This document shows, one piece after another, positions 2,732 to 25,254 of a stretch of DNA of 46,944 bases; within the stretch, counting starts at the first letter, position 1; each line of letters starts with the position of its first letter. The stretch covers positions 1 to 46,944 of the forward strand of contig WRLO01000019.1 of the NCBI GenBank assembly GCA_009777575.1. Direction: 5' to 3'. The stretch comes from Candidatus Cloacimonadota bacterium. Its GTDB lineage: Bacteria; Cloacimonadota; Cloacimonadia; Cloacimonadales; WRIO01. The notes under the pieces are model-generated. The model worked only from the letters and a program-made list of their open reading frames with translations, ran no database searches and had not been told where the DNA came from. A program made the translations under genes and the position numbers.

Positions 2732-3016
2732 ATGGATAAAAACATTGAAAATAACATCGTCTTGTATCAAGATGAAAATGGGATAACAAATGTCAATGTT
2801 CGTTTTTCGGATGAAGATTTGTGGCTTACGCAATCTCATATAGCTGAAATATACGCTTCGTCACAACAAAACATAAGGCATCATATTGAAAGTATTTACA
2901 AAGATAATGAACTAAGCCCAGATCGAACTTGCAAATATTATTTGCAAGTTCAAATTGAGGGACAAAGACAGGTAAAAAGGGATATTTTGCAATCGTGTCC
3001 AATATTAAATTTTTAG
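2732..3016 (+). CDS. RhuM-like protein, N-terminal part only, copy 1
   Basis: This 94-residue ORF matches the N-terminus of RhuM (Fic-associated or virulence RhuM) proteins: a short strand (NIVLYQDENG), the WLTQSHIAEIY helix-turn-helix region, an IRHHIESIYKDNEL helix, and then the VQIEGQRQVKRDI segment that in full-length members leads into YNLDMIIAVGYRVRS. Here the frame ends shortly after RDI. Residual coding of an FLDLI segment can be seen in another frame downstream, so the gene is probably a truncated relative of proteins of about 330 residues. A second copy (7126-7410) ends at exactly the same place, so truncation preceded duplication or the short form is itself maintained. An AGAGGTGG ribosome binding site precedes the ATG. 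Confidence 0.7.
   Translation: MDKNIENNIVLYQDENGITNVNVRFSDEDLWLTQSHIAEIYASSQQNIRHHIESIYKDNELSPDRTCKYYLQVQIEGQRQVKRDILQSCPILNF
2925..2951. repeat. 27-bp palindrome inside the RhuM-like ORF, copy 1
   Basis: Perfect 13-base arms (GAACTTGCAAATA and its complement) with one central base, spanning codons for RTCKYYLQV. It has the same design as the upstream palindrome at 2660-2686 except that one A-T pair is replaced by G-C on both arms. Confidence 0.75.
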
Positions 3017-3168
3017 ATTTGATCAAGTAGGGTGAGGAGTATAAATGGTTACCGCTCATATAAGGCTCATTTTTCACTTGACTAAAAACACTCTTTTAAA
3101 ATATTTGTCTTATTGTTTTTGATAAAGATTATTTTTAGATGTGAGTTATATTATAAAGGATTTTTTAT

Positions 3169-3606
3169 ATGAACGAAATAGAAACTAAAGATGCTAATTT
3201 CTTTACTGATATAAGAGCTATAATTCTTGAAGCTCGTAACAATGCCGTTCGGAGCGTGGATTATGAAAGAGTCAAAATGTATTGGCAATTGGGTGAGCGA
3301 GTTTTTATTGAGGAACAGAAAGAGCAAGATAGAGCAACTTATGGCGAGTATTTAATAAAGAATCTTGCGGAGCAACTTGAAAAGGAGTTTGGAAGCGGGT
3401 TTTCTTATCGGCATTTAGCTTGGGCAAGGCGATTTTACAGACTTTATCCAATTGTGAACGCAGTGCGTTCACAATTGAATTGGTTCCAATACCGCTTACT
3501 TATCGCTATTGAAGATAATAATAAAAGAGAGTATTACGAGCTTGAAGCTATAAATAATGCTTGGACTGGTAGGGAACTTGAACGACAGATTAATTCTTTG
3601 TTGTAA
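3169..3606 (+). pseudogene. DUF1016 (YhcG-type) gene, N-terminal fragment
   Basis: The 145 residues match the first 145 of the intact DUF1016 protein encoded at 7561-8586. The homology then ends and a stop follows almost at once (SLL then TAA), so the PD-(D/E)XK nuclease domain is absent. What remains is the DUF1016_N helical domain, thought to mediate DNA or protein binding. The start ATG follows a weak AAAGGA site and a promoter-like TTGATA region. It could still be translated as a stand-alone binding domain. Compared with the intact copy, changes concentrate at residues 80-120. Confidence 0.75.
3449..3477. repeat. 29-bp palindrome inside the DUF1016 fragment
   Basis: Perfect 14-base arms (CAATTGTGAACGCA and its complement) around one central G, encoding IVNAVRSQL. 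The equivalent palindrome in the other copy (7841-7869) has different stem bases, changed on both arms so pairing is kept. Confidence 0.85.
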
Positions 3607-5193: not shown

Positions 5194-6642
5194 TTAAAAA
5201 CTAAGCCACAAAGCTGGGCGAACTCCAACAGTGTTGCTGCCGACATAGTTACCAGTCAAGTAGATGCGACCACCGTCGTGCACAAGACTAGCGTAAGTAG
5301 TACCGTAACCAGGCGAACGCAACCACCAAAAAGAAGCTATTCCATTGAATGTCGCAATACGATAGGAATTAAATTGGTCATTTATCCAAATTGCTCCAGG
5401 AGGTCTGTTTGCCAATTGCCCACTATCCCCAAAATACTGCACTACTTCGGCAATGCTCAAAAGAAATATCCTGTCCTGAGTATTTGCACCACCATTGGTG
5501 CCATACCATTGATTGTTTTCATTCACATTTGTTACCTGAACTATCCGTGCTCTGTCTTCATTTGAAAAAGCACTCGAATAGTAAAAATTATTGTTCAAAT
5601 AAGCTCTCAAACTACAATTTGCCCAGGTAATACTTACTAATGAATGATGATATTGTCTAAGTTCTATAATATCCTCACTCACTATCAAAACCTTTCCTTC
5701 TTGAACATCTAGAACACGCCATTGATATGCTCCAAATGGTATTAAGCCACCTATTATTAAAACATCAACATTTGCATTGCCAGATTTACTCGTATCAAAA
5801 ATTGATGTAGCGGTGACTACTAGCGATGTTGCTGTTTCGTTATTTCCTACTGTCAAACGACCATTTGAGCTTATATTGGTAGTGGAGCTATTGTTGCCTG
5901 ACAAACTCCATGTCACAGTTTGAGGTGGGTTGTTTGTTCCGTTGACTACAGCGGTAAAATCTCGTGTTCCTGCTAACTTTATATACACAGGATTAGGACT
6001 AACTACGACACTTGTAACAGTAGAAACAACAACATTTGCAATCCCAGTTTTAGTAAGGTCATAAGTTGATGTAGCTTGGACTACAAGAGATGAAGAAGTC
6101 TCATTATTTGACACAGTCAGCTGACCGCTTGAGTTTATGGAAGTAGAGGTGCTATTATTTCCCGACACACTCCAAGTAACAGTCTGTGGTGGGTTGTACA
6201 TCCCATTGACTACTGCTGTAAAATCTTGTGTTCCCCCCTGGTAGGTATTTACAGGGTTCGGAGAGATATCAATGCTCTCAATAATTGGTAATAATAAAGA
6301 AACATTGGCATATCCACTCACACCAGGGTCAAAGGTCGATTTTGCATGCACGGTGAGAGCTGTTGAAGTTTCATCGAGAGCCACAGTCAAAAGACCGTTG
6401 GTGTCAATGATAGTAGTGGAGCTATTATTTCCAGATACCCCCCAGGTAACAGATTTTGGTGGGTTATTTTCACCAAGGACGGTAGCAGTAAATTTTTGAG
6501 ATTGTCCTATTTCAAGGGTTGTAATTTCCTCTGGACTGATGGATACGCTTTCGACTGAGGGGTATTTTACCTCAGCGATACAGCTAAGCAGTGATAAAAG
6601 TAATATCACTGACAATGTAGATAATAAAAATATTTGTTTCAT
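5194..6642 (-). CDS. Ig-repeat lipoprotein with a DGR-type variable C-terminus (target B)
   Basis: This 482-residue surface lipoprotein starts with a signal peptide and lipobox (LSLLSC, Cys21). Three bacterial Ig-like (BIG) repeats follow, at about 31-115, 118-205 and 208-295, each with the NNPPQTVTWSVSGNN core. The C-terminal ~180 residues form a DUF6273-like C-type-lectin/FGE-like domain (ITWANCSLRAYLNN, QDRIFLLSIAEV, SFWWLRSPG, VGVRPALWL). The last ~40 codons are a hypervariable segment that differs from the homologue at 24598-25254 only at codon positions 1 and 2, which marks it as a target of a diversity-generating retroelement. The likely role is surface display of a variable ligand-binding face on an Ig stalk. 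Its 5' third and promoter are almost identical to those of the gene ending at 14740. No neighbouring gene is co-transcribed. Confidence 0.9.
   Translation of the reverse strand: MKQIFLLSTLSVILLLSLLSCIAEVKYPSVESVSISPEEITTLEIGQSQKFTATVLGENNPPKSVTWGVSGNNSSTTIIDTNGLLTVALDETSTALTVHAKSTFDPGVSGYANVSLLLPIIESIDISPNPVNTYQGGTQDFTAVVNGMYNPPQTVTWSVSGNNSTSTSINSSGQLTVSNNETSSSLVVQATSTYDLTKTGIANVVVSTVTSVVVSPNPVYIKLAGTRDFTAVVNGTNNPPQTVTWSLSGNNSSTTNISSNGRLTVGNNETATSLVVTATSIFDTSKSGNANVDVLIIGGLIPFGAYQWRVLDVQEGKVLIVSEDIIELRQYHHSLVSITWANCSLRAYLNNNFYYSSAFSNEDRARIVQVTNVNENNQWYGTNGGANTQDRIFLLSIAEVVQYFGDSGQLANRPPGAIWINDQFNSYRIATFNGIASFWWLRSPGYGTTYASLVHDGGRIYLTGNYVGSNTVGVRPALWLSF
5206..5328 (-). other. DGR variable region B
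   Basis: This segment runs from TGGTGGTTGCGTTCG through 29 mostly variable codons to a constant GGAGTTCGCCCAGC tail plus TTTGTGG. Compared with region A (25120-25242) the variable codons end in C or T almost throughout, and all 28 differences fall in codon positions 1 or 2. In an AT-rich genome the excess of NNC codons (TAC, CAC, GAC, CGC, ATC, GGC, AGC, AAC) fits mutated AAC codons of a template. The constant tail would be the initiation-of-mutagenic-homology end. Confidence 0.85.
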
Positions 6643-7125: not shown

Positions 7126-7410
7126 ATGGATAAAAACATTGAAAATAACATCGTCTTGTATCAAGATGAAAATGGGATAACAAATGTCAATGTTCGCTTT
7201 TCGGATGAAGATTTGTGGCTTACGCAATCTCATATTGCTGAAATTTACGCTACAACTCAGCAGAATATAAGTCTCCACATTGATAGTATCTACAAAGATA
7301 ATGAATTATTTCCAGATCGAACTTGCAAGAAATATTTGCAAGTTCAAATTGAGGGACAAAGACAAGTAAAAAGGGATATTTTGCAATCGTGTCCAATATT
7401 AAATTTTTAG
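7126..7410 (+). CDS. RhuM-like protein, N-terminal part only, copy 2
   Basis: This 94-residue ORF has the same length and the same truncation point as 2732-3016. The two proteins are identical except in the helix-turn-helix stretch (ATTQQNISLHIDSIYKDNELF here, ASSQQNIRHHIESIYKDNELS there) and one residue of the palindrome-encoded segment. The changes therefore sit where a DNA-recognition helix would be. The next gene downstream is the DUF1016 nuclease. Whether the short protein is functional or a remnant cannot be settled from the sequence. Confidence 0.7.
   Translation: MDKNIENNIVLYQDENGITNVNVRFSDEDLWLTQSHIAEIYATTQQNISLHIDSIYKDNELFPDRTCKKYLQVQIEGQRQVKRDILQSCPILNF
7319..7345. repeat. Palindrome inside the RhuM-like ORF, copy 2
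   Basis: 10-base perfect arms (GAACTTGCAA and its complement) separated by seven bases, at the position equivalent to 2925-2951. Confidence 0.6.
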
Positions 7411-7560
7411 ATTTGATCAAGTAGGGTGAGGAGTATAAATAGTTACCGCTCATATAAGGCTCATTTTCACTTGACTAAAACACTCTTTTAAAATATTTGT
7501 CTTATTACTTTTGACAAAGTTTATTTTTAGATGTGAGTTATATTATAAAGGATTTTTTAT

Positions 7561-8586
7561 ATGAACGAAATAAAAACAAAAGATGCTAATTTCTTTACTG
7601 ATATAAGAGCTATAATTCTTGAAGCTCGTAACAATGCCGTTCGGAGCGTGGATTATGAAAGAGTCAAAATGTATTGGCAATTGGGTGAGCGAGTTTTTAT
7701 TGAGGAACAAAAAGGACAAAATAGAGCGACTTATGGCGAGTATTTAATAAAGAATCTTGCTGAGCAACTTGAAAAGGAGTTTGGAAGCGGGTTTTCGTAT
7801 CGTCAATTAACCAGAGCAAGACAATTTTATAGGCTTTACCCAATTGTGTCCGCGCTGCGGACACAATTGAACTGGATGCAGTATAAGCTACTTATAGCCA
7901 TTGCTGACAGCAGCAAAAGAGAGTATTACGAGCTTGAAGCTATAAATAATGCTTGGACTGGTAGGGAACTTGAACGACAGATTAACTCTTTACTGTATGA
8001 ACGATTGTTAATCAGTAACGACAAAGAGGCTGTTCTCGCTGTTGCAAGAAAAGAGCGTATCCCTGAAAAACCATCTGAAATAATTAAAGGTTCAACATAT
8101 TTAGAGTTTTTAGGCTTAAAAAGAGAATCAGAATATTATGAAAAGGACATAGAATCAGCATTAATCAAACATTTACAGGATTTTCTGCTTGAGCTTGGCA
8201 ATGGTTTTTCTTTTGTTGCTCGTCAGAAGAGAATTTTACTTGAAGATGATGAGTTTTTCGTTGACCTGGTATTCTATAATCGACTGCTTCGTTGTTTTGT
8301 TATCATTGAATTAAAAACGCATAAACTTTCTCACGAAGATTTAGGTCAATTACAGATGTATGTAAACTATTATGACCGTTTTGAAAAACTACCAGACGAA
8401 AATAAAACAGTCGGAATACTTCTCTGCACAGACCAAAATGAAATGCTGGTGAAAATAACTCTGCCAGAAGACAATACTCACATCATGACAAGTAAATATC
8501 AACTATATTTACCCTCTGAAAATGAGCTGACTGATGAAATTAAGAAGCTATTAAATAATGTGAGAGATACAAGTGATTCTGAATAG
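7561..8586 (+). CDS. DUF1016 family PD-(D/E)XK nuclease (YhcG-like)
   Basis: This is a full-length DUF1016 protein (341 residues). Residues 10-145 form the helical DUF1016_N domain (YWQLGERVFIEEQ, FGSGFSYRQL, PIVSALRTQLNW). Residues 175-330 form a PD-(D/E)XK nuclease domain with FVDLVFYN (D235) and FVIIELK (E250, K252), followed by GQLQMYVNYYD. The family is linked to DNA processing and mobile or defence loci, and its exact substrate is unknown. The 5' 430 bases are duplicated at 3169-3606. A KilA-N fragment follows immediately, overlapping the stop. A covarying palindrome lies at 7841-7869. Confidence 0.9.
   Translation: MNEIKTKDANFFTDIRAIILEARNNAVRSVDYERVKMYWQLGERVFIEEQKGQNRATYGEYLIKNLAEQLEKEFGSGFSYRQLTRARQFYRLYPIVSALRTQLNWMQYKLLIAIADSSKREYYELEAINNAWTGRELERQINSLLYERLLISNDKEAVLAVARKERIPEKPSEIIKGSTYLEFLGLKRESEYYEKDIESALIKHLQDFLLELGNGFSFVARQKRILLEDDEFFVDLVFYNRLLRCFVIIELKTHKLSHEDLGQLQMYVNYYDRFEKLPDENKTVGILLCTDQNEMLVKITLPEDNTHIMTSKYQLYLPSENELTDEIKKLLNNVRDTSDSE
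7841..7869. repeat. 29-bp palindrome inside DUF1016, covarying with copy 1
   Basis: Perfect 13-base arms (CAATTGTGTCCGC and its complement) around GCT. Compared with 3449-3477, AA/TT in the arms has become TC/GA, so both sides changed together. It encodes IVSALRTQL. Confidence 0.85.
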
Positions 8587-8993: not shown

Positions 8994-9197
8994 ATGGAAG
9001 ATAGCATGGCACCTTATGGTTTTGGTAAAATTGTTGCGGTAGCTCAAAAATGGTCTTTACACGAAGCTTTACAAAAAAAGTCTTTGAGGTATCCCTTGTA
9101 CTCTTTTGTTGATACAATTGAAGCCTCATATATGATTTTGAATGTTTTGTTAAGATTATCTGATTTCTTGATAAAGGAAACGAGGCTATATGAATAA
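8994..9197 (+). CDS. Small protein leading the methylase-nuclease operon
   Basis: This 67-residue ORF has a GAGGGAT ribosome binding site seven bases before its ATG, and it overlaps the methylase start by eight bases, which indicates translational coupling. The sequence (with AQKWSLHEALQKK, YSFVDTIEASYMILNVLLRLS) is helical with an amphipathic, fairly hydrophobic C-terminal half. I recognise no family. By position it may be a controller or partner of the restriction-modification enzymes, or a truncated leftover. Confidence 0.6.
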   Translation: MEDSMAPYGFGKIVAVAQKWSLHEALQKKSLRYPLYSFVDTIEASYMILNVLLRLSDFLIKETRLYE

Positions 9198-12100
9198 CCT
9201 CTCAAAAGTATTTGAAGTATTAAAACTTAATACATCAAATGGATTATATTATCTTAACGAGCCTATTTGGAAATCAATTTTACAATTACCCAATCGTATT
9301 CTAAATCTATTTGAAAATGAAATAAAGCCAGATGCTTTTTTTTGTTTAGATAATAAACCCTTGATATTATTTTATGAAAACCCTGAAGATAAGAAAGAAT
9401 TACATAAAAATATCTGGAATTTTAACGACACTCCAATTGTTATTATCGTGGAGGATAATAACATCACAATTTATAACGGATTTAGACTTCAGAATTCTGG
9501 AGAAAATAAAGGATTTTTAAATAAAATTGGAGATGAAAATGCTCTTAATGATTTTAATTATTTTGAACTAGTGACAGGAAAAACATGGGAAAAACATAAA
9601 GATGAATTAAACCACAAAAATAGAGTAGATTATAACCTTTTAAATAATATAAAGGACGCTCGTGCACTAATGATTGAAATATTACAAAAATCTGCTAAAA
9701 AACAAAGTATAGAATTTCATACTAAAATTGTAAATGCTTTGCTTGGAAAAATTATTTTTATAAGATATTTAATAGACAGAAAGATTTTAATAACTTTTAA
9801 TAATGAAACAAGAATATGGCTTAATACTGATTTATGTGAGTTATTGAAAGACAGCAATAAGACTAAAGTTTTTTTTACATGTTTATCCAATAAAGAAAAT
9901 GGTTTTAATGGCGATCTGTTTCCAATAACTGAAGATGAGTATAAAATAATAACCAGAGATGTTTATGAAATACTCATTAGACTCTTAAAAAGCGAAAGCA
10001 TCGGTTCGAAACAGCCATCATTGTTTGATTTATATGATTTTTCTGTGATACCTGTAGAATTTATAAGTAATGTGTATGAATCATTTGTTGGTGTAGAAAA
10101 TCAAGATAAAGAGGGTATTTACTACACTCCATTATTTTTAGTTGACTATATTTTATCAAAAACCGTAGGTGAGTTTGTTAGTGCAAATAAAACTTATAAT
10201 TGTAAAGTTTTAGATCCTGCCTGTGGATCTGGAATATTTTTAGTTGAAGTTTTACGAAAACTAATTGAACAATACAAAATACAGAATACAAATCTTAAAA
10301 AAGCAACTTTTAAAGAAGATATAAAGAAAATTGTTACTGAAAATATTTATGGAATTGATAAAGATAAAAGCGCAATTGAAGTTGCTATTTTTTCAATTTA
10401 TCTCACTCTTTTAAGTGAAATGGAGCCACCAGATATCGCTTCTTTTAAATTTCCTGAGCTGTTGAATACTAATTTTTTCTGTGAAGATTATTTTGATATA
10501 AATGCTGGATATAACACTATTTTTAAGAGTTTGTGTTTTGATTTCATTGTTGGCAATCCACCATGGAGTCGCGGCAAAAATGAAAAGCAAAGAACTGGGA
10601 ACGAGCCTTTATTTATACAATACTTGCAGAATAGAAAAAAAATAGAAAAATCTTTTAATTACAAACATGAAGTAGATATAGGAAACAAGGAAATTGCTCA
10701 AGCTTTTTTACTAAGAAATAGTGACTTTTCTAACTCTCAAACCAGATGTTCCTTAATTATTACGAGTAAAGTACTATACAATTTACAAAGTAAAAATTTT
10801 AGACAATATTTTTTGCAGAATTTTAAGATAGAAAGAGTTTTTGAATTAGCTCCAGTCAGGCGGGAAGTATTTACTGATAGAGCTGTTGCGCCTGCTTGTG
10901 TATTATTTTATAAATACTCATTTAATGAAAATACAGATGAAAACATAATAGAGCATATAGCTCTTAAACCAAGTCGCTTTTTTTCTTTGTTTAATATATT
11001 TTCTTTATCTATACATGATATAAAGCAAGTTCAACAAGATAGATTTAAAAAATACGATTGGATATGGAAAACCCTAGTATATGGTTCATATCTCGATTTT
11101 AGATTTATCAATAAAATGAATAAATTATCAAGAATTGGCAATGTTATAAAGCAAAATAAAATGATTTTTAAACAAGGTTTAAAAAGAAAAGATGGTGAAA
11201 AAATAGTTGAAGTAAGTGAGTTAGTAGGAAAATCATTTATTGATACCACGAAAAAGCAACTAAAGCCATTTAGAATTATCGACACTGAGATTAAATGGGA
11301 TAAAGCAAATGTTGGATATATTTACACAGAGAACGGTAAACCGTATTTTGAGTTGTTTCAACCGTATTCTTTATTAATTATCGAAACACTAAATAATGAT
11401 TTCACTTCAAATGCTGCAATTAATCATAAAGAAAATGTCTTTACTAGCTCAATTCGTGCTTTAAAAATTCATAATAAAGAACATATTGATATGTTATACT
11501 CCATTAACACAGTTCTCTGTTCATCCTTATTCTCATATTATGCACTTTATTTATGTTCATCTATAGGTATTGAGAGAGAGCAAACCCAAGATAAAGAAAT
11601 TGAAGAAATGTGGTTTTTACAAATACCTGATGCTATTAAAAGGGGAAAACTAATAGAAGAACATGAAACACAAAAAAATATCATAAAATGTAAAGTTATC
11701 GAGGAACTATCAGTTAAAGAGCAATGTGATAATATTATTATGCCTATTTTGTCATTAAGCGATGAAGAAAAGGCTTTACTTGATTATGCAAATAATATTA
11801 TCATTCCAATTCAAATGCGACACGATAATCATGAAAAGCTTTTTGATATTATTATGCTAGAAGATGAAATATTAATAGATTATGCAAACTTGTTCTTTGA
11901 CTATTTCAAATCATCTTTTGAATCTGTTGAGAAAAAATTTATTATAGAAATCTGTCTTTCTCAACACTTGATAGGAATGTTTTTTAAGGTGATTTCAGAA
12001 TCAGAGTATCAGGAAAGAATTATTTGGAAACAGCAAAGCTATAAAGAAATGTTTGCACTATTAACTCATCTCGGAAATGAAAGAATAACAGATAATCTTT

Positions 12101-12249
12101 TTATTCAAAAAGATATTAGAGGTTTTGACGAAGATTATTTTTATATATGTAAACCAAACGAAAAACGATTATGGCATAAAGCTATTGGTTATTTAGATGC
12201 AGAGGAGTTTATGCATCTTATTTTACAAGAAGGGAATAAGGGTAAATAG
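9190..12249 (+). CDS. N6-adenine DNA methylase, large type IIG/BREX-like
   Basis: This 1019-residue protein transfers a methyl group from S-adenosylmethionine to adenine N6. Motif X-like sequence (GIYYTPLFLVDYIL, about 309-322) precedes motif I, DPACGSG (342-348), a GIDKD acidic motif near 388-392, and the catalytic motif IV NPPW (456-459). This is the gamma-class order seen in Eco57I-type enzymes. Residues 600-1019 are probably the target recognition and helical region. The N-terminal 140 residues (FCLDNKPLILFYEN, PIVIIVEDNNITIYNGF) resemble a nuclease or substrate-binding domain, but I cannot see an unambiguous PD-(D/E)XK triad. The gene overlaps the small ORF upstream and the nuclease gene downstream, so the three form one operon. 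Confidence 0.88.
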   Translation: MNNLSKVFEVLKLNTSNGLYYLNEPIWKSILQLPNRILNLFENEIKPDAFFCLDNKPLILFYENPEDKKELHKNIWNFNDTPIVIIVEDNNITIYNGFRLQNSGENKGFLNKIGDENALNDFNYFELVTGKTWEKHKDELNHKNRVDYNLLNNIKDARALMIEILQKSAKKQSIEFHTKIVNALLGKIIFIRYLIDRKILITFNNETRIWLNTDLCELLKDSNKTKVFFTCLSNKENGFNGDLFPITEDEYKIITRDVYEILIRLLKSESIGSKQPSLFDLYDFSVIPVEFISNVYESFVGVENQDKEGIYYTPLFLVDYILSKTVGEFVSANKTYNCKVLDPACGSGIFLVEVLRKLIEQYKIQNTNLKKATFKEDIKKIVTENIYGIDKDKSAIEVAIFSIYLTLLSEMEPPDIASFKFPELLNTNFFCEDYFDINAGYNTIFKSLCFDFIVGNPPWSRGKNEKQRTGNEPLFIQYLQNRKKIEKSFNYKHEVDIGNKEIAQAFLLRNSDFSNSQTRCSLIITSKVLYNLQSKNFRQYFLQNFKIERVFELAPVRREVFTDRAVAPACVLFYKYSFNENTDENIIEHIALKPSRFFSLFNIFSLSIHDIKQVQQDRFKKYDWIWKTLVYGSYLDFRFINKMNKLSRIGNVIKQNKMIFKQGLKRKDGEKIVEVSELVGKSFIDTTKKQLKPFRIIDTEIKWDKANVGYIYTENGKPYFELFQPYSLLIIETLNNDFTSNAAINHKENVFTSSIRALKIHNKEHIDMLYSINTVLCSSLFSYYALYLCSSIGIEREQTQDKEIEEMWFLQIPDAIKRGKLIEEHETQKNIIKCKVIEELSVKEQCDNIIMPILSLSDEEKALLDYANNIIIPIQMRHDNHEKLFDIIMLEDEILIDYANLFFDYFKSSFESVEKKFIIEICLSQHLIGMFFKVISESEYQERIIWKQQSYKEMFALLTHLGNERITDNLFIQKDIRGFDEDYFYICKPNEKRLWHKAIGYLDAEEFMHLILQEGNKGK

Positions 12250-12932
12250 TGGTTATGACAAATAAAATAAAATTATTTAAACACAGCGATGAATTTTACA
12301 AAAAAAAGTTTCAGGAAATTTTAAGAAATATTTATTTATGTTACCTTTTTTTGAAAGAAGATACTATAAAAATACCATCAAACAACGAAAACATGATAAG
12401 AGACATACTAGTAGATAATTACTTAAACAATGATGATATCAGAATAAAAACAGGATTAAATAAGTATTCATTCAATAAAGAAACTGCAGAAAGCAGAGGT
12501 TTTGCTGATATAAAAATTGAATTTAAAAATGAACTACTCCCTACAAATGCATATTATATCATAGAATGTAAAAGACTTGATAATAAGAATACTAAAGGTA
12601 AAAATGGTTTGAATGCAAAATACATCAACGAGGGTATTTTTAGATTCATATCAAATCATTATTCAACAAATTGTGGGGTGAATGCGATGTTAGGTTTTGT
12701 CATTCAAGAAATGAATATTGATGAAAACATTGATAATCTAAACTTTTTAATGCAAAATAAAATCAAAAAATCCACTAAACAATACATTCAAAAAGAGACT
12801 TTTTTGCCAAATTATGATTATCATTATAGTTCTGAACATATTGATGTAGAGAGTAAAGGATTTACATTATATCATATTATGTTAGACTTTTCGAGTTTTA
12901 ATGAAATTGAGTTGTCAGCTTCTAATAGATAA
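12249..12932 (+). CDS. PD-(D/E)XK nuclease partner of the methylase
   Basis: This is a protein of about 227 residues. The core GFADIKIEF, then a loop, then YYIIECKRLD fits the PD-(D/E)XK pattern D...ECK of restriction endonucleases (Asp near residue 88, Glu-Cys-Lys near 105-107). It starts at a GTG that shares its first base with the methylase stop codon; an ATG six bases downstream is an alternative, and GGG-rich sequence upstream can serve either. Together with the methylase it most likely forms a restriction-modification or related phage-defence module. No helicase or specificity gene is present, which argues against type I and DISARM. Confidence 0.75.
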   Translation: MVMTNKIKLFKHSDEFYKKKFQEILRNIYLCYLFLKEDTIKIPSNNENMIRDILVDNYLNNDDIRIKTGLNKYSFNKETAESRGFADIKIEFKNELLPTNAYYIIECKRLDNKNTKGKNGLNAKYINEGIFRFISNHYSTNCGVNAMLGFVIQEMNIDENIDNLNFLMQNKIKKSTKQYIQKETFLPNYDYHYSSEHIDVESKGFTLYHIMLDFSSFNEIELSASNR

Positions 12933-13282: not shown

Positions 13283-14740
13283 TTAATAACTAATCCATGA
13301 TGCTGGTCGAATACCCAAACTAAAAAAAACGCTCCCACCCTCCATATTTACTTCTCCAGACTCCGAAATATAGCTAGTATTTCCTGAATTTGAACCTGAT
13401 GATCGTAACCACCAATTATCTGCAAAACCATTAAATAAAGCAATTCGATTTGAATTAAATTGATCAGTAATAAACCATGCATAAGGATGAGGTCTATTTT
13501 CCAATTGTCCACTATCTCCAAAATATTGCACTACCTCGGCTATACTCAAAAGAAATATTTTATCAAGAGTGTCTTCACCACCTTGCGTGCCATACCATTG
13601 ATTGTTTTCATTGGTATTGCTTACTTGAACTATCCTGGATCTATCATTATTGGAGAATGCACTAGAGTAATAAAAAACATTGTTTAAATAATATCTCAGA
13701 CTACTATCTGCCCATGAGTTACTACCGCCTTGGGTATGATACTGCCTTCTCATTAGTATACTCTCAGTCACTATTAAAGCCTTATTATCTTGAATATCAA
13801 GTACCTTCCACTCATAAGCTCCAAATGTAATTATATCTCCAACACTAAGTAAAATATTTACACTAGCATATCCACTTTTACTTGGATCATAAGTCGATGT
13901 AGCCTGAACTATTAGCGAAACCGATGTCTCATTATTATCTACATACAGCTGTCCATTTGTATTAATTATTGTTGTTGAGCTGTTGTTTCCAAACAAGCTC
14001 CATGTAACAGTTTGCGGAGGATTATTTTCACCGTTTACAGTAGTAGCGAAATCTTTAATCCCCCCCAGACTGACAATTGCAGGGTTTGGGCTGACTACGA
14101 CACTTGTAACAGTTGGGATTAAAACAGCAACACTGGCATTTCCAGATTTACTCGTATCATAAGTAGATGTGGCTTGGACTACTAAAGCAGTCGAAGTTTC
14201 TACCTCAGCTATTGTCAAAAGACCTTCTGTATCCACGGTAGTAGCCGAGCTATTATTTCCAGAAACAGACCAGATGACAGTTTGAGGAGGGTCATTTGTC
14301 CCATTGACAGTGGCGGTAAAATTTTGAGTATCTCCTGGAGCTACATCAATACTATTTGGACTGACAACCACACTTGAGATAATATGCCTGACGACATTTA
14401 CACTCGCTTCACCGCTCACACCAGGGTCAAAGGTCGATTTTGCCTGCACGACTAGAGCAGTAGATGTTTCCCCCATAGCCACAGTCAAAAGACCATTAGA
14501 GTCAATGATAGTAGTGGAGCTATTATTTCCTGATACCCCCCAGGTAACAGATTTTGGTGGGTTGTTTTCACCAAGGACGGTAGCAGTAAATTTTTGAGAT
14601 TGTCCTATTTCAAGGGTTGTAATTTCCTCTGGACTGATGGATACGCTTTCGACTGAGGGGTATTTTACCTCAGCGATACAGTTAAGCAGTGATAAAAGTA
14701 ATATCACTGACAATATAGATAATAAAATTTTTTGTTTCAT
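13283..14740 (-). CDS. Ig-repeat lipoprotein, paralogue without DGR signature (C)
   Basis: This 485-residue lipoprotein has the same architecture as 5194-6642: lipobox LSLLNC (Cys21), three BIG repeats (about 31-115, 118-205, 208-297), and a C-terminal DUF6273-like lectin-fold domain (NSWADSSLRYYLNN, DKIFLLSIAEVVQYFGDSGQL, NWWLRSSG, LGIRPASWI). The first ~110 codons and the promoter are almost identical to those of B, indicating recent duplication or gene conversion. The C-terminal end instead has ordinary AT-rich codons, differs in length from the other two, and ends in IRPASW rather than VRPALW. It therefore looks like a fixed, non-diversified member of the family. Confidence 0.9.
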   Translation of the reverse strand: MKQKILLSILSVILLLSLLNCIAEVKYPSVESVSISPEEITTLEIGQSQKFTATVLGENNPPKSVTWGVSGNNSSTTIIDSNGLLTVAMGETSTALVVQAKSTFDPGVSGEASVNVVRHIISSVVVSPNSIDVAPGDTQNFTATVNGTNDPPQTVIWSVSGNNSSATTVDTEGLLTIAEVETSTALVVQATSTYDTSKSGNASVAVLIPTVTSVVVSPNPAIVSLGGIKDFATTVNGENNPPQTVTWSLFGNNSSTTIINTNGQLYVDNNETSVSLIVQATSTYDPSKSGYASVNILLSVGDIITFGAYEWKVLDIQDNKALIVTESILMRRQYHTQGGSNSWADSSLRYYLNNVFYYSSAFSNNDRSRIVQVSNTNENNQWYGTQGGEDTLDKIFLLSIAEVVQYFGDSGQLENRPHPYAWFITDQFNSNRIALFNGFADNWWLRSSGSNSGNTSYISESGEVNMEGGSVFFSLGIRPASWISY

Positions 14741-24163: not shown

Positions 24164-24601
24164 ATGAAATTTATTTTAAAAAGAGCTACCAAGCTCACAA
24201 CAATAGTGACTTTACTATTCATCCTTTGGGGATGCAGTAATAGTCCTACAAAAGACATTCCAGTGACAGGCATCTCACTGGATCAAACAATGGTCTCTCT
24301 GAATATAGGAGAGTCTGTAAAACTGAAGGCAACTATAGTGCCACAAAATGCTACCAACCAAAATCTAATTTGGACTAGTAGCAATGAAGAAATATTCTCA
24401 GTGTCAGGTGACGGACTGGTGACAGCTCTGGATTACGGAACTGCGGTCATCTCAGTCTCCACTGTAGATGGAGGTAATTCAACCTCAAGCAATGTCTTTA
24501 TCGCTGAAGTCGACTGGAAAAATCAAAAAGGTATCAAAACAGTGATGGTGCCTATATCAGAAATTGGGGCAAATTCTGACTCCATAAAGAGGTGGAAATG
24601 A
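24164..24601 (+). CDS. Small lipoprotein with one BIG2 Ig domain
   Basis: This 145-residue lipoprotein has a signal peptide and lipobox (FILWGC, Cys24) followed by a single BIG2 domain (about 31-115, VTGISLDQTMVSLNIGESV, NATNQNLIWTSSNEE, GDGLVTALDYGTAVI). The C-terminal 30 residues (VDWKNQKGIKTVMVPIS) are not an Ig fold and are unrecognised. A GGAGATAA site precedes the ATG. Its stop overlaps the start of the next lipoprotein as ATGA, so the two are translationally coupled. In the two Ig-lipoproteins at 5194 and 13283, Ig repeats and the variable lectin-like domain are one polypeptide; here they are split into two genes. Confidence 0.8.
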   Translation: MKFILKRATKLTTIVTLLFILWGCSNSPTKDIPVTGISLDQTMVSLNIGESVKLKATIVPQNATNQNLIWTSSNEEIFSVSGDGLVTALDYGTAVISVSTVDGGNSTSSNVFIAEVDWKNQKGIKTVMVPISEIGANSDSIKRWK

Positions 24602-25254
24602 AAACAAAAAATTTTATTTTGGTGACTATTTTTATTATGCTGTTTTTAGTCTCTTGTAGTGACAAAAAAACTACAGAGCCAGACAATATTAAGGTAGGTG
24701 ACATCATCCAGTTTGGGACATATACATGGCGAGTATTGGACATCCAATCTGGTAGAGCATTGGTAGTGAGTGAGAATATCTTAGAGTATAGGTATTATCA
24801 TACTTTATGGACTAGAATCACTTGGGCAGATTGTAGCCTTCGTGCTTATCTAAATGGAGAATTTTACAATTCGAGTGCTTTTAGCAATGCTGACAGAGAG
24901 AGGATAGTCCAAGTGACCAATATCAATGAAAATAATCAGTGGTTTGGCACAAATGGTGGTGTAAATACTCAGGACAGGATATTTCTTTTGAGCATTGCCG
25001 AAGTGGTGAAGTATTTTGGAGATAGTGGACAGCTGGCAAATAGACCACCTGAGGCTTGGTATATTAATGATCAATACAATACTAATCGGATAGCGACTTT
25101 TAATGGATCGGCTTATTTATGGTGGTTGCGTTCGCTTGGTAGCGGTGCTATTTACGCTGGTAGTGTGGGCAGCGCTGGTATCGTCCGCATGGATGGTAAC
25201 TATGTCGACTACGACGATGGTGGAGTTCGCCCAGCTTTGTGGCTAAATCTGTAA
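24598..25254 (+). CDS. Short lipoprotein with a DGR-type variable C-terminus (target A)
   Basis: This is a protein of 218 residues. The lipobox LFLVSC places the lipidated Cys at about residue 19. Nearly the whole mature protein is the DUF6273-like lectin-fold domain shared with 5194-6642 (ITWADCSLRAYLNG, ERIVQVTNINENNQW, QDRIFLLSIAEVVKYFGDSGQLANRPP, LWWLRSLG, GVRPALWL). The last ~40 codons are the variable region (25120-25242), differing from target B only at codon positions 1 and 2. I start at ATG 24598 (AGAGG upstream, ATGA overlap with the BIG2 gene) rather than the GTG at 24592. By its operon it is probably expressed from the sigma-54 promoter. Expected role: display of a variable ligand-binding face at the cell surface. 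Confidence 0.88.
   Translation: MKTKNFILVTIFIMLFLVSCSDKKTTEPDNIKVGDIIQFGTYTWRVLDIQSGRALVVSENILEYRYYHTLWTRITWADCSLRAYLNGEFYNSSAFSNADRERIVQVTNINENNQWFGTNGGVNTQDRIFLLSIAEVVKYFGDSGQLANRPPEAWYINDQYNTNRIATFNGSAYLWWLRSLGSGAIYAGSVGSAGIVRMDGNYVDYDDGGVRPALWLNL
25120..25242 (+). other. DGR variable region A
   Basis: Between the constant TGGTGGTTGCGTTCG and the constant GGAGTTCGCCCAGC/TTTGTGG, 29 codons include 19 that differ from region B. All 28 nucleotide differences are at positions 1 or 2. In 20 of them one copy has A. Both arrays are rich in NNC/NNT codons, as expected from AAC/AAT template codons. No matching template repeat or reverse transcriptase gene was found in the window. Confidence 0.85.

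Follow-up and report, generated by a model that had tools for sequence, protein, structure and literature searches.

Dispersed DUF6273 genes for predicted lipoproteins in a Cloacimonadota bacterium carry the likely variable regions of a probably trans-acting diversity-generating retroelement

Introduction

In excerpts of two studies of gut phages and Faecalibacterium prophages (PMC10743442, PMC11792537), DUF6273 with a C-type lectin fold is described as a target of diversity-generating retroelements (DGRs), and one of the two places the variable regions (VRs) at the C terminus of the domain. Excerpts of work on Treponema denticola (PMC4891356) describe a DGR with several dispersed targets that have a lectin fold and are in many cases predicted lipoproteins, as well as isolates that keep targets without the core. 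Excerpts on cyanobacterial (PMC7517822) and Thiohalocapsa (PMC10907252) DGRs report lectin-fold targets far from the reverse transcriptase (RT); rewriting in trans was deduced there from VRs that match a distant template outside A.

Here, we analyzed a 46,944-nt stretch of DNA from a Cloacimonadota bacterium, referred to in its entirety as the window, and compared its VR genes with these systems. The phage and prophage systems, as excerpted, involve phage proteins and a DGR in the same genome, whereas the proteins described here are predicted lipoproteins of the cell, and their genes have no RT within reach. The excerpted T. denticola targets differ in belonging to the TvpA family, in numbering seven or eight in the strains named, and in the presence of the core in most isolates discussed (PMC4891356). 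The cyanobacterial and Thiohalocapsa targets, again as excerpted, differ in domain combinations (signalling or conflict proteins) and phyla. The excerpted text of a paper on DGRs (PMC8144416) names the phylum Cloacimonadota once, within a group, and DGR literature mentioning termites has no termite DGR in its titles. Published work already covers the mechanism, targets with DUF6273, and VRs remote from the RT; a dispersed set of DUF6273 targets in this phylum was not found in the literature searched.

Results

Two genes of the window encode predicted lipoproteins that end in a VR. Target 1 (24598..25254, forward strand; 218 aa) has a lipobox (LVSC, with Cys20) and a body made of one DUF6273 domain (103.6 bits in the profile search, cut-off 23.5). 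Its 120-nt VR (25120..25239, forward strand) runs from WWLRS to RPAL, and VR codons 8–33 (25141..25218) form a lattice of mutable codons, mostly NNC/NNT. Target 2 (5194..6642, reverse strand; 482 aa; LLSC) has an Ig-like stalk (Big_2, I-set) and a C-terminal DUF6273 domain (112.4 bits, same cut-off), with its VR at 5209..5328 and the lattice of VR codons 8–33 at 5230..5307, both on the reverse strand. Structure prediction gives the target a C-type-lectin-like fold, with the VR at the 3′ end of the gene. With Foldseek alone, at E up to 0.001, a single PDB entry matched, the 9qa6 chain; the lectin matches come from a second comparison with VIA-align.

The original prediction, that both genes carry DGR variable regions, was built on a pattern that our recount reproduces. 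Across 33 codons (starts 25123 to 25219), a codon-by-codon comparison of the targets shows differences in 19 codons and at 28 nucleotides, none of them at position 3. By hand count, one or the other copy has A at 20 of these 28 sites. VR flanks are identical, and third-position differences are common directly upstream. The observation is thereby confirmed, but two is an undercount, as there are 11 more VR-length copies elsewhere in the genome and a third DUF6273 gene in the window that lacks VR DNA. This third gene (13283..14740, reverse strand; 102.9 bits) is a paralogue of target 2 whose C-terminal codons have diverged, position 3 included. A search with VR DNA gave no match in it, and in its present form the gene is no target of this template.

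Directly upstream of target 1, a gene for a Big_2 protein (24164..24601, forward strand; PF02368, 56 bits) has a frame that overlaps the target's start by 4 nt, and the two are perhaps co-transcribed. Target 2 is flanked by two near-identical ORF pairs (window 2732–3606 and 7126–8586), each made of a 94-aa ORF and a DUF1016/YhcG-type ORF; the latter is shortened in the first pair (145 vs. 341 aa), and the arrangement is a duplication around a VR gene. In window 9190–12932, a gene for an Eco57I-like N6 methylase (1019 aa) precedes an ORF of 227 aa that matches no Pfam family, and the two resemble a restriction-modification pair. A dispersed palindromic repeat, GAAATCTCCGATTTC, occurs at window 25316, 43597, 43651, and 44599. 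Genome-wide, it lies directly after five of 13 VR genes, is found downstream of the C12, C4b, C4c, and C69b VR genes, and is in tandem beside that of C12.

VRs are dispersed across the assembly (3,755,968 bases in 198 contigs, 91.31% complete), of which the window is contig C19. We found 24 DUF6273 matches, including two fragments of a single interrupted gene. Using a template inferred from the VRs as query, we located 13 VR-length copies on nine contigs (three on C4, two each on C19 and C69, and one each on C11, C12, C29, C51, C104, and C169), and a 63-nt partial match on C158. When the whole assembly was searched with a 45-nt pattern of fixed letters, allowing up to three mismatches, the same 13 places were recovered and the control pattern read backward had no matches. 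Uninterrupted frames contain 12 of the 13 copies, and C4:50079-50574 is broken by stops. A lipobox pattern is present in 10 of the 13 genes. Interrupted (C4:50079-50574) and truncated (C69:17159-17539) DUF6273 copies occur beside intact ones, an observation that speaks of turnover in the target set. Mis-binning of the window is unlikely: the best named relatives of its NusA, both from "Candidatus Cloacimonetes bacterium", share 75% and 74% identity with it, a result that concerns C19 alone among the nine VR contigs.

The copies share a codon frame. It starts with a fixed WWLRSPG, continues with the lattice (NNC NNT ACT NNT NNC GCT AGT NNT GTG NNC NNC NNT GGT NNC NTC NNC NTG NNT GGT NNC NNT GTC NNC NNC NNC NNT), and ends with GGT GGA GTT CGC CCA GCT TTG TGG. 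In seven copies, A is the most common letter at free lattice sites (109 of 252), followed by G, T, and C. The lattice has a capacity of about 1.2 × 10^21 protein sequences. Some features count against a DGR: in the same number of copies, nine of 294 fixed cells have off-lattice changes (two at the A of ACT/AGT); in nine copies, 26 of 215 mismatches to the inferred template are not at A (10 of the 26 are in C12); and four copies depart from 120 nt (C29, 114 nt; C4c, 117 nt; C4b and C51, 123 nt). In DGRs, a 3′ homing signal (IMH) follows the VR, in some systems together with a hairpin. Here, the copies share GTTCG(C/T)CCAGC..., and no common hairpin after the VR was seen by eye in 13 single folds.

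The third codon position is largely spared within VRs and not outside of them. Seven of the 13 copies were used to measure this gradient (C12, C11, and the indel-bearing C4b, C4c, C51, and C29 were omitted). Per codon and pair, third-position differences amount to 0.340 over the 50 upstream codons, 0.000 in codons 1–7, 0.042 in codons 8–34, and 0.079 in codons 35–40. Between the upstream codons and codons 8–34, differences increase from 0.118 to 0.508 at the first position and from 0.115 to 0.425 at the second. Residues outside the VR are also hypervariable, among them 64, 66, 71–73, 152, 154, and 155 (numbering of the 24598–25254 protein). In eight of 13 copies, codon pairs that encode different residues differ at position 3 in 64.4% of cases at eight hypervariable non-VR sites (n = 194), 49.3% at all sites from 36 to 174 (n = 923), and 10.6% inside the VR (n = 492). 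Selection for change alone therefore does not spare position 3. Because paralogue differences at residues 64–73 and 152–155 include third positions, these residues varied by another route; they may line the same binding face as the VR. Chance or codon bias as the source of the VR pattern is ruled out by the reversed-pattern control and the codon-position controls.

A template from another organism predicts which VR columns vary. Among named genomes, Oscillospiraceae metagenome-assembled genomes (MAGs) supply many of the closest DUF6273 relatives, with sample names that we take to be those of termite-gut projects. An RVT_1 match is present in 15 of 27 genomes reached via 28 of 77 DUF6273-relative loci, and in five of these genomes (loci L142, L143, L144, L145, and L150) the RT shows G...SQ and YMDD motifs and is presumably of DGR type. 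In one, MAG Th196P3bin70 (G064), a template segment directly upstream of the RT, TR1, translates as WWLRSPGNNSNNAANVNNDGNVNVNGNNVNNDNNGVRPAL. All 27 mismatches between TR1 and a VR ~740 bases away are at template A, as are all 21 in a VR on another contig (L228), the trace expected from action in trans. We used TR1, which is independent of our data, since the genome's own template is missing. TR1 aligns ungapped, codon for codon, to the Cloacimonadota VRs. In eight of 13 copies (C12 was omitted, and C4b, C4c, C51, and C29 were omitted for indels), 34 of 35 TR1 A columns vary compared to 19 of 85 other columns (Fisher P = 3.5e-15). With a second template, TR_L152, the counts are 36 of 37 and 17 of 83, in a test that is out of register near its end because the template is one codon shorter there. 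Variation had been expected to fall at template A, and against the foreign template TR1 it does; together with the third-position controls, the other organism's template lends strong support to the reading of both window stretches as DGR variable regions.

The DGRs of Th196P3bin70 (L070/L143, L152) resemble the present system in their DUF6273 target, 40-codon VR frame, and second VR on another contig. They differ in having an RT and template, in phylum, in fixed letters and codon usage, and in the number of DUF6273 matches in the genome (11). The MAG has two DUF6273 templates with different fixed letters, and the six of its VRs that were compared relate to them unevenly: every difference of L218 and L228 from TR1 is at A, whereas L223 and L233 follow TR2 to about nucleotides 98 and 80 before losing register, and L237 and L240 match neither. 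That four of the six differ from both templates not at A alone counts against a DGR reading. The L061/L145 locus contains an RT together with five VRs; a template was looked for there and not found. Another MAG, G058 (Glo450_bin9; L057–L064 in part), has 22 DUF6273 matches, several of which share fixed codons of the VR frame, and no RVT_1 match.

Protein comparisons hint at change concentrated in the VR. Protein P0007, from another assembly, is identical to P0011, one of the genome's own C4 copies, over residues 1–230; thereafter, the two differ by 19 substitutions and two gaps, with 15 of the 21 differences inside the VR. The other six, just before the VR, count against the DGR reading. Among 33 homologue pairs at least 80% identical over 120 pre-VR residues, similarity is lower in the VR core for 32 (medians of 0.817 before the VR and 0.333 in the core); pairs were drawn from the 106 of 120 listed proteins with a recognizable VR start and share members, hence are not independent. 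No near-identical allele of target 2 was present among the best 120 matches. In other bacteria, its Ig-like stalk is joined to different heads (PF07603, PF03781; P0246, P0251, P0256, P0259, P0260, and P0276), and stalk and lectin head look exchangeable.

Within the phylum, DUF6273 was detected in only one of 124 genomes searched. Eleven of 29 RT loci from Cloacimonadota relatives carry the G...SQ motif, and eight of the 11 have a template/VR pair within reach. These DGRs (L202, L203, L205, L207, L209, L211, and L213, and the variant L204) come from the same order and have a G...SQ RT and a nearby A-biased template/VR pair; they differ in that their templates encode WNNNA-NC in seven and WNNNSNND in L204, and DUF6273 in none. 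We take the WNNNA-NC segment to be of the FGE/sulfatase-like lectin type. Because the templates of other Cloacimonadota DGRs are not DUF6273, the lineage probably obtained its DUF6273 heads from outside the phylum. As for a viral source, the VR lattice pattern had no matches in IMG/VR. Eight viral loci encode relatives, and in the three examined (L247–L249) neither template nor RT was found. The phage and plasmid collections each yielded one record, both below 60% identity.

The rest of the genome was searched for a DGR-type RT and a ~120-base template, and neither was found in the 91.31%-complete assembly. There are only two PF00078/RVT_1 matches, on C133 and C173, and both were rejected as a DGR RT. 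The C133 protein is a group II maturase (376.1 bits, cut-off 300), and was the only match to a DGR RT query. The C173 match lies in an endonuclease-RT frame of a LINE-like fragment (L002), which we take to be an insect-type LINE and is probably host DNA in the bin. The inferred-template search, at E up to 10, gave 28 matches in the incomplete assembly; all 13 VR-length ones are VRs and none is a template. AAC/AAT throughout the lattice is seen in none of the 13 copies. A single bAvd-like match (28.9 bits) is below the cut-off of 40 and distant from any RT seen. These negative results count against the DGR reading. One DGR elsewhere that acts in trans, as originally predicted, is the best explanation and has a close analogue in L228 and TR1 of Th196P3bin70, but since neither RT nor template turned up in the assembly, which is incomplete, this step is inferred.

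Discussion

The VRs very probably belong to a DGR, one that probably acts in trans on about a dozen dispersed lectin-lipoprotein genes. From one template RNA, an RT would make cDNA that carries errors at A, and this cDNA would replace the 3′ ends of these genes. A single template would have AAC/AAT at the lattice, and it and the RT may lie in the ~9% of the genome that is unassembled or on an unbinned mobile element. The DGR may have been active recently, and the variable face of the lectin fold would be displayed on the cell surface for binding.

Other histories could leave similar patterns. A past DGR could have written the VRs and the RT and template since been lost, such that copies now only decay. 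The assembly in which no RT or template was found, the off-lattice changes in some copies (10 of 29 mismatches in C12 are not at A), and the stops in C4:50079-50574 are consistent with such orphan VRs, as are, in excerpts, T. denticola isolates with targets and no core (PMC4891356). But six of nine copies have at most three non-A mismatches and one has none, relative to a template itself inferred from these copies, and P0007 and P0011 have changed mainly in the VR while 230 residues have not changed at all. Because most copies keep the lattice, and because of this pair, we favor an RT and template that are missing from the assembly or unbinned over ones that are lost, and consider orphan VRs unlikely. 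Far less credible still is an origin without a retroelement, by gene conversion among paralogues and positive selection on a binding loop. The genes are indeed a paralogue family with 24 DUF6273 matches, and hypervariable sites occur outside the VR too. However, codons for different residues differ at position 3 in 64.4% of cases there and in 10.6% inside the VR, conversion would not keep the third base while freeing the first two, and an independent template predicts the variable columns; the template test and codon control lead us to reject this origin.

Within the DGR reading, the use of at least two templates is rather unlikely, though less so than orphan VRs; the 120-nt copies would then have their own template, and those of 114, 117, and 123 nt would have others. 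The length variants (C29, C4c, C4b, and C51) and the two DUF6273 templates of G064, with different fixed letters, are compatible with this refinement. Nevertheless, the length variants have zero to two mismatches in the fixed letters of the first 45 nt, and indels in single copies would explain them equally well.

The same 40-codon mutation frame in a Bacillota MAG suggests that the lectin cassette is shared across phyla. We tentatively propose, as a scenario that may well be wrong, that a Cloacimonadota lineage took the DUF6273 head and DGR from gut Bacillota or the phages of these, amplified the head into a dozen surface lipoproteins, and rewrites all of them in trans from one template. If true, this bacterium would have a cell-wide library of changeable binding proteins, with about 10^21 VR sequences possible for each, and would be alone in its phylum among 124 genomes. 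The genome has 13 VR-length copies, whereas the T. denticola strains that the excerpts name have seven or eight targets (PMC4891356). Should the RT and template be found, the set would reveal how a single template can supply many genes simultaneously and how a gut bacterium benefits from having numerous changeable lectins on its surface.
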